Source: a virus
Virus record (IMG/VR): IMGVR_UViG_3300042197_002147
Span: 92,712-156,711 of that record
Strand: one strand, 5' to 3'
Length of the DNA: 64,000 bases
A model generated the notes under the pieces. It had not been told where the DNA came from. It did not search any database and was given only the letters and a program-made list of their open reading frames with translations. A program made the translations under genes and the position numbers. This document shows, in pieces, positions 56,419 through 62,741 of this stretch (position 1 is its first letter; every line of letters starts with the position of its first letter).

Positions 56419-57438
56419 ATGCATATTGATAATGAAATCAAACTTGATTATAGCGATGTATTAATTCGCCCAAAGCGTTCGCGGTTGTCTTCGCGGGCTG
56501 AAGTTCGTATCACCCGTGAATTTAAATTTCCACATTCACCACAAACATGGAATGGTATTCCAATTATGGCGGCGAATATGGACACAACGGGAACAATAGA
56601 AATGGCAAATGCATTGTCACAAATGCAAACAATTACATGCCTTCACAAGTACATGACAAAGGAAGAATTGTCAAGACTTAGTACCAAAGACAATGTTGCA
56701 CTGAGCTGTGGATTAGATAATCCTAGCAGAAATTGTCTTGATGGTGGTTTTTCTGATGGCTTCAAATTTATTTGCTTGGATGTCGCAAATGGTTATTCAG
56801 AAAGATTCATTGATCTAGTAAAGGATACAAGAGAAAAATGGAAACATGCAATTATAATAGCAGGAAATGTAGTGACTGCGGAAATGACCGAAGCCTTGAT
56901 TTTGGCTGGAGCGGATATAGTGAAAGTTGGAATTGGCCCTGGCAGCGTTTGCACAACAAGAAAGATAACGGGAGTTGGATATCCACAACTGTCAGCCGTT
57001 ATCGAATGCTCAGACGCAGCCCACGGTCTTGGCGGGCATATCGCAGCAGACGGTGGTTGCACATGTCCGGGAGATGTAGCGAAAGCGTTTGCGGCAGGAG
57101 CAGACTTTGTAATGCTTGGTGGGATGTTAGCAGGCGCCGAAGAATCAGGAGCAGAGAAATCTATAGACTCATCTGGAGTAGTTAAGAAAAAGTTTTATGG
57201 AATGTCATCAAAGGAAGCAATGGATAGATACGCCGGTGGTGTTGCTTCTTATCGTGCAGCAGAAGGAAAGTGTGTAGAAATACCATATACCGGTCCAGTC
57301 CAAGATACTTTGAATGAAATTTTGGGTGGTGTTCGTTCTGCTTGTACTTATGTTGGTGCAAAATCAATCAAAGACTTACCAAAATGCACAACATTTGTTC
57401 GTGTAAATCGTCAGTTAAATAATGTATTTGGAGTATAA
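56419..57438 (+). CDS. guaC: GMP reductase
   Basis: A 339-residue TIM-barrel enzyme of the IMPDH/GMPR family. GMPR rather than IMPDH is indicated by G-P-G-S-V-C-T-T-R with the catalytic Cys, then T-G-V-G-Y-P-Q and C-S-D-A-A-H-G-L, by the phosphate-binding A-D-G-G-C, and by the absence of CBS domains. The N-terminus shows [11 protein letters not shown] and A-A-N-M-D-T. It converts GMP to IMP using NADPH. In a phage it could rebalance purines toward adenine nucleotides, suiting an AT-rich genome. Confidence 0.9.
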
Positions 57439-57440
57439 TT

Positions 57441-57617
57441 ATGAACAGCAATGCAAGAAAACTAAAACTTAAGAGAAGTCGTCGTAACAAGATTCGCAAG
57501 AAGTCTGCACAATTAGAATTGCTAAATGCAAAAAAGAAAACTCTTGAATTTTTGGATAGAGAAGGTAAACTACCAAAGATTGTAAAGACAATGATTCAGC
57601 AAAGAAAAACTGCATGA
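57441..57617 (+). CDS. Small basic protein (58 aa)
   Basis: Arg/Lys-rich: K-L-K-R-S-R-R-N-K-I-R-K-K. Starts 2 bp after guaC and its stop overlaps the next ATG (ATGA). Ribosomal-protein-like composition; RNA or DNA binding is likely. Function unknown. Confidence 0.5.
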   Translation: MNSNARKLKLKRSRRNKIRKKSAQLELLNAKKKTLEFLDREGKLPKIVKTMIQQRKTA

Positions 57618-58156
57618 ATATTTTTGTACTAGATCAAAATCCATCAATTGCTGCAAGCATGATGTGCGATAAGCATGTCGTTAAGATGATTGTTGAATCT
57701 TGTCAATTGTTATCTACTGCTCATCATGTATTAGATGGAAAAGAGATAACTGTAGATACTGGAAAGAGAAAGTATAGAACATATACTTGTTCTCAACCTG
57801 ATATTTGTAAAGCAACAATGATCAATCATCCATGCACAATATGGACGAGAAGTTCAAGAGGAAATTATGCTTGGTTGTGGCGACACGCATATGCCTTATG
57901 TGAGGAATATACTAGTCGTTATACCAAAACGCATTCTATGGAAAAGATGCTAGATGGTCCATTAAATAATATACCACAGAATATTAATTTAGGCGATATT
58001 ACTGATTTTGCTCAAGCAATGCCTGATGCTTATAAAAATCAGGATGCAGTTGCCGCATATCGTGCCTATTATCTAGGCGAAAAGGCAAGATTTGCAAAGT
58101 GGCGTATGGGAAATATCCCAACTTGGTGGTTGACAAACAATGAAGTTGTGATATAA
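57614..58156 (+). CDS. Conserved T4-like phage protein (180 aa)
   Basis: Begins M-N-I-F-V-L-D-Q-N-P and has C-D-K-H-V-V-K-M-I-V-E-S-C-Q, W-T-R-S-S-R-G-N-Y-A-W-L and Y-Y-L-G-E-K-A-R-F-A-K-W. This set (LDxxPxxAAxxxCDKHVVKM... W) recurs in phages of marine bacteria. Conserved Cys and His could form a metal site. The 3' end carries the promoter of the tRNA block. Function unknown. Confidence 0.65.
   Translation: MNIFVLDQNPSIAASMMCDKHVVKMIVESCQLLSTAHHVLDGKEITVDTGKRKYRTYTCSQPDICKATMINHPCTIWTRSSRGNYAWLWRHAYALCEEYTSRYTKTHSMEKMLDGPLNNIPQNINLGDITDFAQAMPDAYKNQDAVAAYRAYYLGEKARFAKWRMGNIPTWWLTNNEVVI
58129..58156 (+). promoter_or_regulatory. Host-type promoter for the second tRNA block
   Basis: TTGACA (58129-58134), 16 bp spacer, TATAAT (58151-58156). 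Both boxes perfect; it overlaps the end of the previous gene and drives the stretch with the RNA candidate and tRNA-Lys/Thr. Confidence 0.8.
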
Positions 58157-59884: not shown

Positions 59885-60109
59885 ATGACTACGATGATTT
59901 GTTACTGCGACAAGTGCAAGAAGCAAATTCCTCAGGCTCGTCTTGAGGCACTTCCGAATGCAACTACTTGCGTTCGGTGTTCGGATGCGAAACCGATGGT
60001 CGGTTTCATGGATTGGTATCACAAGACTGCGCCAGAACTTGTGATGGTTTCGTCTGGCGATTCAGAGAATCTGCGTAGGGCAAAGCGTATCAATGCCCGC
60101 GCTCGTTAA
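59885..60109 (+). CDS. TraR/DksA-type zinc-finger protein (74 aa)
   Basis: Start M-T-T-M-I-C-Y-C-D-K-C at 59885. The zinc finger C-D-K-C-K-K-Q-I followed by R-L-E-A-L-P-N-A-T-T-C-V-R-C fits the TraR/DksA C4 module. Such phage proteins enter the RNA polymerase secondary channel and alter host transcription. Lacks the DksA coiled coil, so it is minimal. Confidence 0.72.
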   Translation: MTTMICYCDKCKKQIPQARLEALPNATTCVRCSDAKPMVGFMDWYHKTAPELVMVSSGDSENLRRAKRINARAR

Positions 60110-60119
60110 AAGGAAAAAA

Positions 60120-60458
60120 ATGCTTACAAAGGATTTCTACGACGGAGTTGTTAAGGGTTTTTGTTTTGGTCTTTCGGCGGTTACTGCCTTCACCGGCATT
60201 CTTGCTAGCGCAGGACTAATTCCATCACTTTCGTTGCTACACGGAACAAATCTCCTTGTTACTTCAATTGTGTTTTACAGCATTCCGGCAGTGATGGACC
60301 GTGTTGAAAATCACTTCTCACCCAAGCCCAAGACGCTTGACCTTGATGCTATTTTTAGCAGCAAGTCTCAGGCACCTCATGGTGTCGGCGGCGACAATTA
60401 CAAGCCGGCAAAGAAGAAGCGCACAGTAACTAAGAAGATGGCACTTCGCAAGAAGTGA
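60120..60458 (+). CDS. Small membrane protein (112 aa)
   Basis: Start M-L-T-K-D-F at 60120 with AAGGA. Two membrane helices (L-S-A-V-T-A-F-T-G-I-L-A and L-L-V-T-S-I-V-F-Y-S-I-P) then a basic Lys-rich tail (K-K-K-R-T-V-T-K-K). Inner-membrane protein of unknown function. It ends just before the leaderless promoter at 60460 and starts 10 bp after the zinc-finger gene. Confidence 0.5.
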   Translation: MLTKDFYDGVVKGFCFGLSAVTAFTGILASAGLIPSLSLLHGTNLLVTSIVFYSIPAVMDRVENHFSPKPKTLDLDAIFSSKSQAPHGVGGDNYKPAKKKRTVTKKMALRKK

Positions 60459-60459
60459 G

Positions 60460-61100: not shown

Positions 61101-61108
61101 TATAAATA
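61101..61108 (+). promoter_or_regulatory. T4-type late promoter (TATAAATA)
   Basis: Perfect TATAAATA directly after the previous stop. AGGAG precedes the ATG at 61124. It could also transcribe the tmRNA downstream. Confidence 0.72.
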
Positions 61109-61123: not shown

Positions 61124-61645
61124 ATGAAAACTCTTAGAGATATTTTACAATACCTGGCACTAAACGAATATTGGAATTATCAATACCAAAAACCAAAAGT
61201 AGATCCACAAAAAATGGCTGCTGTTGATATCACAAGAGAACGCAGAATGGAACACGCTAAAAAGACTCACGCTAGCATTATGAAATCGGTAGAAAACGAT
61301 GATAGTATTGCAGTTGTTTCCCATGCGGAAGAACCAAAACTTGAGTCCGAAAAAGGAGATGCCTATTTAATGAAACACCAATGGGGTGGAGACATGGAAC
61401 CATCATTAATGTATGTCACTCCAAAAGGAAAGGCACATAAGGTAGAGAGATTGGATCCAAGTCCAAGTGGATTTATTAGTGTTTGGGCTCACGGACATAG
61501 TGGCCGCGGAGCAAGAAAACCTGTAGGGCATATTCTTGCAACATTTGGACATCAAGAAGAAATGGGTCTAACAATTCCAAAATCAAAACACTTGACAAAG
61601 GCCACTCGTAGTGGTAAAAAGTACAATATGAAAGTAGAACTATAA
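61124..61645 (+). CDS. Capsid-targeted-like protein (173 aa)
   Basis: Starts M-K-T-L-R-D-I-L-Q-Y-L-A-L-N-E-Y, a longer variant of the capsid-targeting leader with site L-N-E|Y. Residues 70-170 form a globular domain with Y-L-M-K-H-Q-W-G-G and H-G-H-S-G-R-G-A-R-K. Its stop touches the tmRNA 5' end. Function unknown. Confidence 0.55.
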   Translation: MKTLRDILQYLALNEYWNYQYQKPKVDPQKMAAVDITRERRMEHAKKTHASIMKSVENDDSIAVVSHAEEPKLESEKGDAYLMKHQWGGDMEPSLMYVTPKGKAHKVERLDPSPSGFISVWAHGHSGRGARKPVGHILATFGHQEEMGLTIPKSKHLTKATRSGKKYNMKVEL

Positions 61646-62038
61646 GGGGGCGAAACGGTTTCGATAGCATAAGTAAATATTAGAAAGCACAGCGAAGAAG
61701 ATTGCAGGCTTCGTAAAAAGCAATCAAACCATAACTGCCAATAACAATAACTATATGGCAATTGCTGCTTGAGTAACAGCGAAAAGTGTACTAGCGATTA
61801 CGCTATCCATGCGGGCTAGGACCGTCAGAAAGCATAGGAAAGGTACTCCGATAACTTTCCATGACTCAATTCGGATAGGATTGTGAAAGGGTTAGTAAAC
61901 AGTCCGAAATTCATACTGAACTCGACCTGTGGGAAAGAAAGTGTCTTTGATTTCCCCACTTGTACAAACAAAGACTAACTGTGTAGGGTTCTTATAAATA
62001 CATATGTCTACACGGGGGTTCGACTCCCCCCGCCTCCA
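61646..62038 (+). ncRNA. ssrA: Transfer-messenger RNA (tmRNA)
   Basis: A 393-nt tmRNA. The 5' end GGGGGCG pairs with CGCCTCC near the 3' end, with a G-U pair at position 3, the alanine-tRNA-synthetase identity element. The tRNA-like part has GGTTTCGATAG and a T-loop TTCGACT, discriminator A; CCA is not encoded. The tag frame runs 61737-61772, Ala resume codon GCC, reading A-N-N-N-N-Y-M-A-I-A-A stop. The tag resembles bacterial ANDENYALAA-type tags that direct stalled proteins to proteases. Phage tmRNAs are rare but known. Confidence 0.92.
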
Positions 62039-62052
62039 TTAAAGGATTGTAT

Positions 62053-62286
62053 ATGCCAAAGAAACAAGAAAAATTGTATTTCGCAAAAACTGAATTAGAT
62101 GGAAGATGCATTAGTATGTTGCTTACAGAAAAAGAAATAGTAAAAGCATCAGAACGCGCATTAGATGAAAAGAACGCCGATTTTGTAGGCGACAACATGA
62201 TCGGTTCATGTTGGCCAATCCAAAAACCACCACCATGTTCTATATGGGATAGGTTTATGGGTCGTTGTAATTGTACTAAGGAGTAA
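62053..62286 (+). CDS. Hypothetical protein (77 aa)
   Basis: Start M-P-K-K-Q-E-K-L at 62053 with AAAGGA upstream, 14 nt after the tmRNA. Ends with a Cys-rich segment (P-P-C-S-I-W-D-R-F-M-G-R-C-N-C). Possible metal-binding protein. Two nucleotides separate it from the LSM-like gene, implying a shared transcript with the tmRNA. Confidence 0.5.
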   Translation: MPKKQEKLYFAKTELDGRCISMLLTEKEIVKASERALDEKNADFVGDNMIGSCWPIQKPPPCSIWDRFMGRCNCTKE

Positions 62287-62288
62287 TT

Positions 62289-62609
62289 ATGTCAAATGTG
62301 AAAATTGTTCGTTTATTGAGTGGTGAAGAAATTATTGGTAATGTTGAGATTGTTGATGTTGGAGTAAAGATCAAGAATCCAACCATTCTTATCCCGACAC
62401 CGGAAGGCAAACTTATGTTTGCAAAGTGGATGCCGTATGCCGATACTTCAGAAGGCATTGTGCTAGAAAACAAAAATATAATGTTTACTCTCAACGCACA
62501 GAAAGATCTAGAGGATCATTTTGTATCGGTTGTAGTAAATGGTCTACTTGTTCCTGGCAAGAAGGTAGTGGAACCAGTAAGTGGTTCCAATCTAAAACTC
62601 ACAGTTTAA
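62289..62609 (+). CDS. LSM/Sm-like phage protein (106 aa)
   Basis: Begins V-K-I-V-R-L-L-S-G-E-E-I-I-G-N-V, the first strand and turn of an Sm/LSM barrel, followed by V-K-I-K-N-P and L-M-F-A-K-W-M. This conserved small protein is common in marine phages and resembles Hfq-like RNA-binding barrels. It sits between the tmRNA and a tRNA. RNA binding is inferred. Confidence 0.7.
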   Translation: MSNVKIVRLLSGEEIIGNVEIVDVGVKIKNPTILIPTPEGKLMFAKWMPYADTSEGIVLENKNIMFTLNAQKDLEDHFVSVVVNGLLVPGKKVVEPVSGSNLKLTV

Positions 62610-62612
62610 AAC

Positions 62613-62640
62613 TTGACAGATAGCGTATATCTGTTATAAT
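62613..62640 (+). promoter_or_regulatory. Host-type promoter for tRNA-Arg
   Basis: TTGACA (62613-62618), 16 bp spacer, TATAAT (62635-62640), 11 nt before the tRNA 5' end. Both boxes perfect. Confidence 0.82.
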
Positions 62641-62651
62641 AACTGAGTTAA

Positions 62652-62725
62652 GTTCCCGTAGCTCAGTTGGATAGAGCATTCGCCTTCTAAGCGAATGGTC
62701 AGTGGTTCGAATCCACTCGGGAACG
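62652..62725 (+). tRNA. tRNA-Arg(TCT)
   Basis: Acceptor GTTCCCG/CGGGAAC, anticodon stem TTCGC/GCGAA with loop CTTCTAA (anticodon TCT), T-loop TTCGAAT, discriminator G. It decodes AGA. Confidence 0.93.
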
Positions 62726-62741
62726 CTTTAAGGAGATTTAT

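Follow-up and report, generated by a model that had tools for sequence, protein, structure and literature searches.

The tmRNA Website update recorded ssrA in ten phages, most of them mycobacteriophages (PMC4131195), while elsewhere tmRNA was reported in 402 of 18,146 phages, with 133 distinct structures of which 53 were two-piece (PMC9004378). The marine share of the one-piece phage tmRNAs was just 2.5% in the same paper (PMC9004378). Among the carriers described, the Methylophilales phage Melnitz resembles the phage studied here in being a marine T4-like myophage with a tmRNA; its tmRNA is two-piece (permuted) and lies directly after an early promoter, under a glutamine riboswitch (PMC9004378). 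The mycobacteriophages of the Bxz1 group and Wildcat and the Bacillus phage G (PMC4131195), as well as the Stenotrophomonas phage Marzo (PMC8928761), likewise encode tmRNA. Further cases, in the portions of the literature consulted, are found in Bradyrhizobium phages. The tmRNAs of the Bxz1 group, Wildcat, phage G and Marzo are one-piece molecules. What a phage gains from its tmRNA is a question that the portions of the literature examined answer just by suggestion.

The window analysed here is a stretch of 64,000 nucleotides, positions 92712–156711 of a 156,711-base virus contig from IMG/VR, and coordinates below are those of the window unless the record or a locus is named. ARAGORN and the Rfam covariance model both identify a complete one-piece tmRNA gene (ssrA) at 61646–62038 on the plus strand. 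The ARAGORN call has exactly these boundaries, with a coding part at 61737–61772 and the predicted tag ANNNNYMAIAA, the same bacterial-type tag that the first-pass annotation had read at this locus. Against RF00023, the gene scores 134.9 bits (E = 1.2e-52) over the full model (1–374; span 61646–62041), above the curated gathering cut-off of 47 bits, and it is the sole match above this cut-off in the whole 156,711-base record. The match is full-length and in standard order, and a permuted (two-piece) gene order is absent. A degenerate pattern for the tmRNA 5′ end matched once in the window and in none of 100 shuffles. The annotation's principal claim, that the phage encodes a tmRNA, is therefore borne out by the covariance score as well as by the conserved structure and the synteny in relatives described below. 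No sequence match to the window tmRNA was found in 50,697 phage records by blastn.

The gene contains the parts that a working tmRNA would be expected to have (Table 1). G3–U70 is invariant in all seven distinct aligned sequences and, together with the T-arm, indicates that the parts for alanine charging are present. In the same way, the pseudoknot PK1 upstream of the tag (five pairs, 91.4% of cells paired in the alignment) and the GCC resume codon indicate that the parts for a switch to the internal reading frame are present. The tag frame has an alanine resume codon, a hydrophobic Ala-Ala end and a stop codon, and the tag ends in IAA, not LAA. The tRNA-like end had been annotated as complete, which holds for G3–U70 and for the intact T-arm but not for the 3′ CCA: the 3′ end reads GCCTCC-A-TTA, and none of the eight tmRNA loci encodes CCA after the discriminator, having TTA, CTA or TTC there instead. 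An encoded 3′ CCA is not required for a tmRNA, and many bacteria add CCA. It is also absent from all 11 tRNA genes of the window. No match to SmpB, SspB or a CCA-adding enzyme was found in the record, indicating that the host must supply all three.

Table 1. Features of the tmRNA locus and its surroundings (window coordinates).
Feature	Position	Strand	Evidence or remark
T4-type late promoter −10, TATAAATA	61101..61108	+	15 nt before ATG of 173-aa ORF
173-aa ORF, first gene of late unit; stop codon abuts tmRNA G1	61124..61645	+	
Acceptor stem P1, 5′ strand; G3 = 61648	61646..61652	+	7/7 pairs invariant with 62031–62037
P2 long helix, 5′ strand	61665..61691	+	Rfam structure line; 6 P2 pairs changed on both sides
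Pseudoknot PK1, 5′ strand; partner 61709–61713	61693..61697	+	Structure alignment
Tag frame: resume codon GCC, ANNNNYMAIAA, stop TGA	61737..61772	+	ARAGORN; tag common to 6 relatives with synonymous change
P2 long helix, 3′ strand	61980..62010	+	Rfam structure and alignment
Second TATAAATA, in P2 3′ strand; candidate internal T4-type late promoter	61993..62000	+	
T-arm	62014..62030	+	5/5 pairs invariant
Acceptor 3′ strand (U70 = 62035) and discriminator A; CCA not encoded	62031..62038	+	
77-aa ORF, 3′ of tmRNA	62053..62286	+	
106-aa ORF, phrog_527 (PHROG without assigned function), synteny marker	62289..62609	+	
Sigma-70 promoter TTGACA-16-TATAAT before tRNA-Arg	62613..62640	+	12/12 consensus bases
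tRNA-Arg (tct)	62652..62726	+	ARAGORN, Rfam

The structure is conserved among relatives. In an alignment of eight tmRNAs (seven distinct sequences, 336 cells), 92.3% of the cells are paired, a value that none of 500 shuffles attained, and slid structures were only 41–50% paired. Changes on both sides of a pair were observed at six pairs, every one of them in P2 (helices 2–4 of the structure test). Further standard pair types numbered 9 against 11.8 in shuffles, and so were not above the shuffled level. Pairing is weaker in H5 (81%), and one sequence, that of the distant relative L146, lacks three of the five PK1 pairs in the alignment used, although inspection by eye suggests that a shifted PK1 is possible there.

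The record encodes TerL, a portal protein, a gp23-type major head protein and a DNA helicase, together with a clamp, a clamp loader and a translation repressor, which we take from their PHROG descriptions to be gp45, gp62 and a RegA-type protein, respectively. A gp55-type late sigma factor gives a full match (E = 1.2e-59) at record positions 59938–60459. The presence of all these homologues identifies the phage as T4-like. Its nearest named relatives are marine, with TerL matching cyanomyoviruses at up to 57% and gp23 matching the Pelagibacter phage Mosig at 57%, all below 60%. A cyanobacterial host was considered because the nearest TerL and gp23 proteins are those of cyanophages and Mosig, yet no psbA was found. 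Upstream of the tmRNA, the window also carries an IMP dehydrogenase/GMP reductase-type gene (56419–57438) and a pyrimidine dimer glycosylase gene (57614–58156), the latter of the DenV type. A scan of bacterial genomes, sampling 100 stretches with a bias from the tmRNA 5′-end pattern used, listed many Deltaproteobacteria-type records. Seven of the bacterial tmRNAs have tags that begin with ANNN followed by K, S, N or Q (L023, L033, L034, L048, L059, L092 and L097); by title, their records are proteobacterial and myxococcal MAGs, and the tags include ANNNKHFALAA and, in a Myxococcota MAG (L048), ANNNNAFAIAA. Over the whole gene, none of the bacterial tmRNAs sampled exceeds about 60% identity with the tmRNA of the window.

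The first-pass annotation had placed a late promoter upstream of the tmRNA. A T4-type late −10 element is indeed present, but it is located 545 nt from G1, before the 173-aa ORF, rather than directly before the tmRNA. The window contains 12 copies of the octamer TATAAATA, compared with 2.95 in shuffles, and none of 100 shuffles reached 12. Record-wide, 12 of its 23 sites lie within 40 nt of the ATG of an ORF that is 60 aa or longer, compared with 10% of random positions; the two ORF criteria used were similar but not identical. The site at 61101 has the hallmarks of a late promoter, with the octamer just upstream of a gene in a genome that encodes gp55 and gp45, and the T4 late-transcription genes of the same record support the annotated late transcription. 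The late −10 is found 545–560 nt before G1 in all seven loci whose upstream sequence extends to 900 nt or more (the window, L138, L139, L140, L017, L141 and L146; the eighth, L142, is cut short), and the spacing from octamer to ATG at the upstream gene is 14–15 nt. The 173-aa ORF has no Pfam or PHROG match. Because the upstream gene of L146 shows no match to it, the order of a late gene followed by the tmRNA is kept even though the gene differs. By contrast, the tRNA-Arg gene, which lies 614 nt beyond the tmRNA on its other side, has a sigma-70 promoter with all 12 consensus bases in seven of nine loci, 11 in L146 and 8 in L147; an early-type promoter, kept in most relatives, adjoins the late tmRNA unit.

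We consider it probable, at roughly 0.77, that this T4-like phage has a working one-piece tmRNA, accessory and produced late, which maintains the supply of ribosomes and amino acids while late genes are expressed. In the mechanism that we propose, gp55-RNA polymerase would transcribe the 173-aa ORF and the tmRNA together from the TATAAATA late promoter, host RNase P and 3′ nucleases would free the tmRNA, and the host CCA-adding enzyme would complete its 3′ end. Host AlaRS, through alanine charging, SmpB and EF-Tu would then bring the molecule to ribosomes stalled at broken messages, where the template switch would append ANNNNYMAIAA to the unfinished chain, and host proteases, ClpXP for example, would degrade the product. 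The benefit to the phage would be that ribosomes are freed and amino acids recycled at the time when its late genes are expressed.

The timing of expression could be different, with the tmRNA made early or throughout infection and mainly clearing ribosomes from decaying host mRNA, the role that the first-pass annotation had proposed. Host-mRNA clearing would fit better with early expression, in line with Melnitz, whose tmRNA follows an early promoter, which led the authors to suggest early action (PMC9004378). In the window, a sigma-70-like site matching 10 of 12 bases lies 54 nt before G1, possibly leaving some early transcription, and read-through from upstream could occur as well, since no terminator-like site was scored between 60573 and G1. 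However, this sigma-70-like site is not kept in relatives, where the best site before the tmRNA matches just 8 or 9 bases (9 in L141 and 8 in the remaining four; six loci were compared, the window included), whereas the late −10 is kept in seven of seven. The predicted late promoter therefore points more to ribosome upkeep in late expression than to the early phase of host-mRNA decay, and we regard a mainly early role as unlikely.

We then wondered how widely the tmRNA is shared among related phages. The same tmRNA with the same tag is found at the same place in six other viral contigs (L015, L016, L017, L018, L021 and L022), and the sole difference in the tag codons across the seven contigs is a synonymous AAC/AAT change. 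Rfam found all six relatives (L022 as locus L142), whereas ARAGORN missed all but L018. Four of ten loci retrieved with a tag pattern (L013, L014, L019 and L020) were discarded as chance matches in which the frame runs past the tag. In the more distant L146, a tmRNA with the tag ANNTLALAA precedes the same 106-aa ORF and tRNA-Arg. It shares 65% identity with the window tmRNA, and a profile built from the seven-member family gives it 113.7 bits; the runner-up among all loci compared, a bacterial tmRNA, reaches 43.1.

Relatives of the 106-aa ORF were found in 17 loci, with a tmRNA in seven and none found in ten. Of these ten, at least L003, L143, L144, L145, L147 and L149 have upstream sequence covering the place, and L148, L150, L151 and L152 are either truncated or distant. 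In L005 (the contig of L144), just one base lies between the 173-aa ORF stop and the start of the next gene, and in L138 (the contig of L015) the tmRNA sits exactly between homologues of these two genes, with the downstream one recognised by eye. L143 has, by eye, the same neighbours as L146 and no tmRNA. The absence of the tmRNA from relatives with the same neighbours indicates that it is an accessory gene. The simplest reading is that the tmRNA is old in this phage group and has been repeatedly lost, with repeated gain as a possible alternative. At the place of the L146 tmRNA, L143 has a short stretch, GGTTCTAAATCTCCATAA, followed by a terminator-like hairpin (L143:3507–3570); the stretch may be what is left of a decayed tmRNA 3′ end, or it may have arisen by chance. 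A gene that comes and goes and changes its tag is as expected for an accessory function matched to particular hosts.

The tag itself might serve a different purpose, in that the phage tmRNA would compete with that of the host for SmpB and its tag would alter protease handling through the inserted M and the IAA end, sparing or redirecting incomplete phage proteins. The C-terminus of the tag does differ from the LAA type, the relative at the same place bears another tag, and strong inhibition of tmRNA is described for a molecule that resembles the TLD-only RNA of phage DS6A (PMC4131195). The tag nevertheless remains degron-like, with its hydrophobic-Ala-Ala end, and we find such re-targeting improbable. 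A functionless host gene captured in transit, either recently acquired or a remnant of, for example, an ssrA integration site, can practically be set aside even though ssrA is a common integration site (PMC9004378), given that structure and tag are conserved across divergent contigs, that the homologous tmRNA of L146 lies at the matching place, and that no close bacterial tmRNA is present among the 100 bacterial stretches sampled.

Within the accessory, late-made tmRNA that we favour, close inspection revealed the second TATAAATA copy in P2. This inner octamer is kept in seven of seven family members, with changed bases directly on both sides, and is followed by the next ATG at 49–53 nt. It is absent in L146, where the tmRNA is followed instead by a hairpin with a T run behind it, and where a separate TATAAATA precedes the 106-aa ORF by 38 nt. 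Shuffling produces the octamer in 2.6% of window tmRNAs (131 of 5000) and in 4.4% of L138 tmRNAs. The family members compared differ by just 4–10% and the window and L015 tmRNAs are 91% identical overall, so the conservation of the inner octamer is weak evidence. Stray copies also occur: at record sites 17262, 58739, 61437 and 74460, TATAAATA falls within ORFs that are 100 aa or longer, and no suitable ATG lies within 80 nt of it.

To look beyond the family, viral tmRNAs were scanned for TATAAATA at this P2 position, which returned 21 loci, 15 of them outside the window tmRNA family. Thirteen of the 15 are above the Rfam tmRNA cut-off; L128 and L133 are not, and those two loci begin shortly before the match. 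By eye, the 15 loci fall into two groups, and four of the 12 records tested from these groups encode a gp23-type head protein. In neither group is TATAAATA clearly enriched over shuffles, and the outside groups therefore give no promoter support. Any A/T octamer is found at that P2 place in at least 119 stretches; among the matches listed (111 loci in 92 distinct regions, some of which look like tRNAs and were left in the count), TATAAATA is present in four regions and TTATTATT in seven. On these counts we rejected TATAAATA as a general feature of viral tmRNAs, and this result is evidence against the inner-promoter reading. An earlier pattern for the embedded octamer had given two loci, neither with a tmRNA. 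In another phage group, tmRNAs with very long predicted tags were noted, one of 32 aa, AKAITNAVSAVKSAMTNVVEFFCEEESYALAA (L123:7781–8213, plus strand), and one of 24 aa (L125:8260–8699, minus strand). Taken together, these observations allow only a tentative proposal, to which we give somewhat less than even odds, that the P2 octamer lets the tmRNA gene serve also as a late promoter for the genes that follow it. A late promoter inside a tmRNA gene is not treated in the portions of the literature on tmRNA and T4-type late promoters that we examined. If the proposal is true, a single sequence would be constrained by both RNA folding and the phage late sigma factor, and a tmRNA placed between the two genes that are one base apart in L005 would bring a late promoter for the downstream genes.

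Phage tmRNAs are already known, and the window gene is a clear further example of them, not something of a new kind; it extends the known cases by a well-supported lineage of one-piece tmRNAs from T4-like phages. It shares with bacterial tmRNA (RF00023) the G3–U70 acceptor, the T-arm, P2, PK1, the resume codon, the tag and the domain order, and differs in being phage-borne, in not encoding CCA, in its tag ANNNNYMAIAA and in an identity of at most about 60% within the bacterial sample. Its putative promoter has the T4 late octamer TATAAATA in a genome with gp55 and gp45 genes, as in T4 with gp55, gp33 and gp45 (PMC10132071), although the promoter function here is read from sequence alone. Less usual are its position in a late unit, the occurrence of paired relatives that carry or lack the gene, the tag that differs between relatives at the same site, and the inner octamer that may be a promoter. 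These natural pairs, together with two tags at one place, permit a direct comparison of the benefit of a tmRNA to its phage. Unlike the two-piece tmRNA of Melnitz, the window tmRNA is one-piece and lies in a late unit, and no riboswitch above the Rfam cut-off was found in the window. In Melnitz the promoter is early and a riboswitch is present, and the contrast with the late placement here suggests that the timing of tmRNA use differs between phages.
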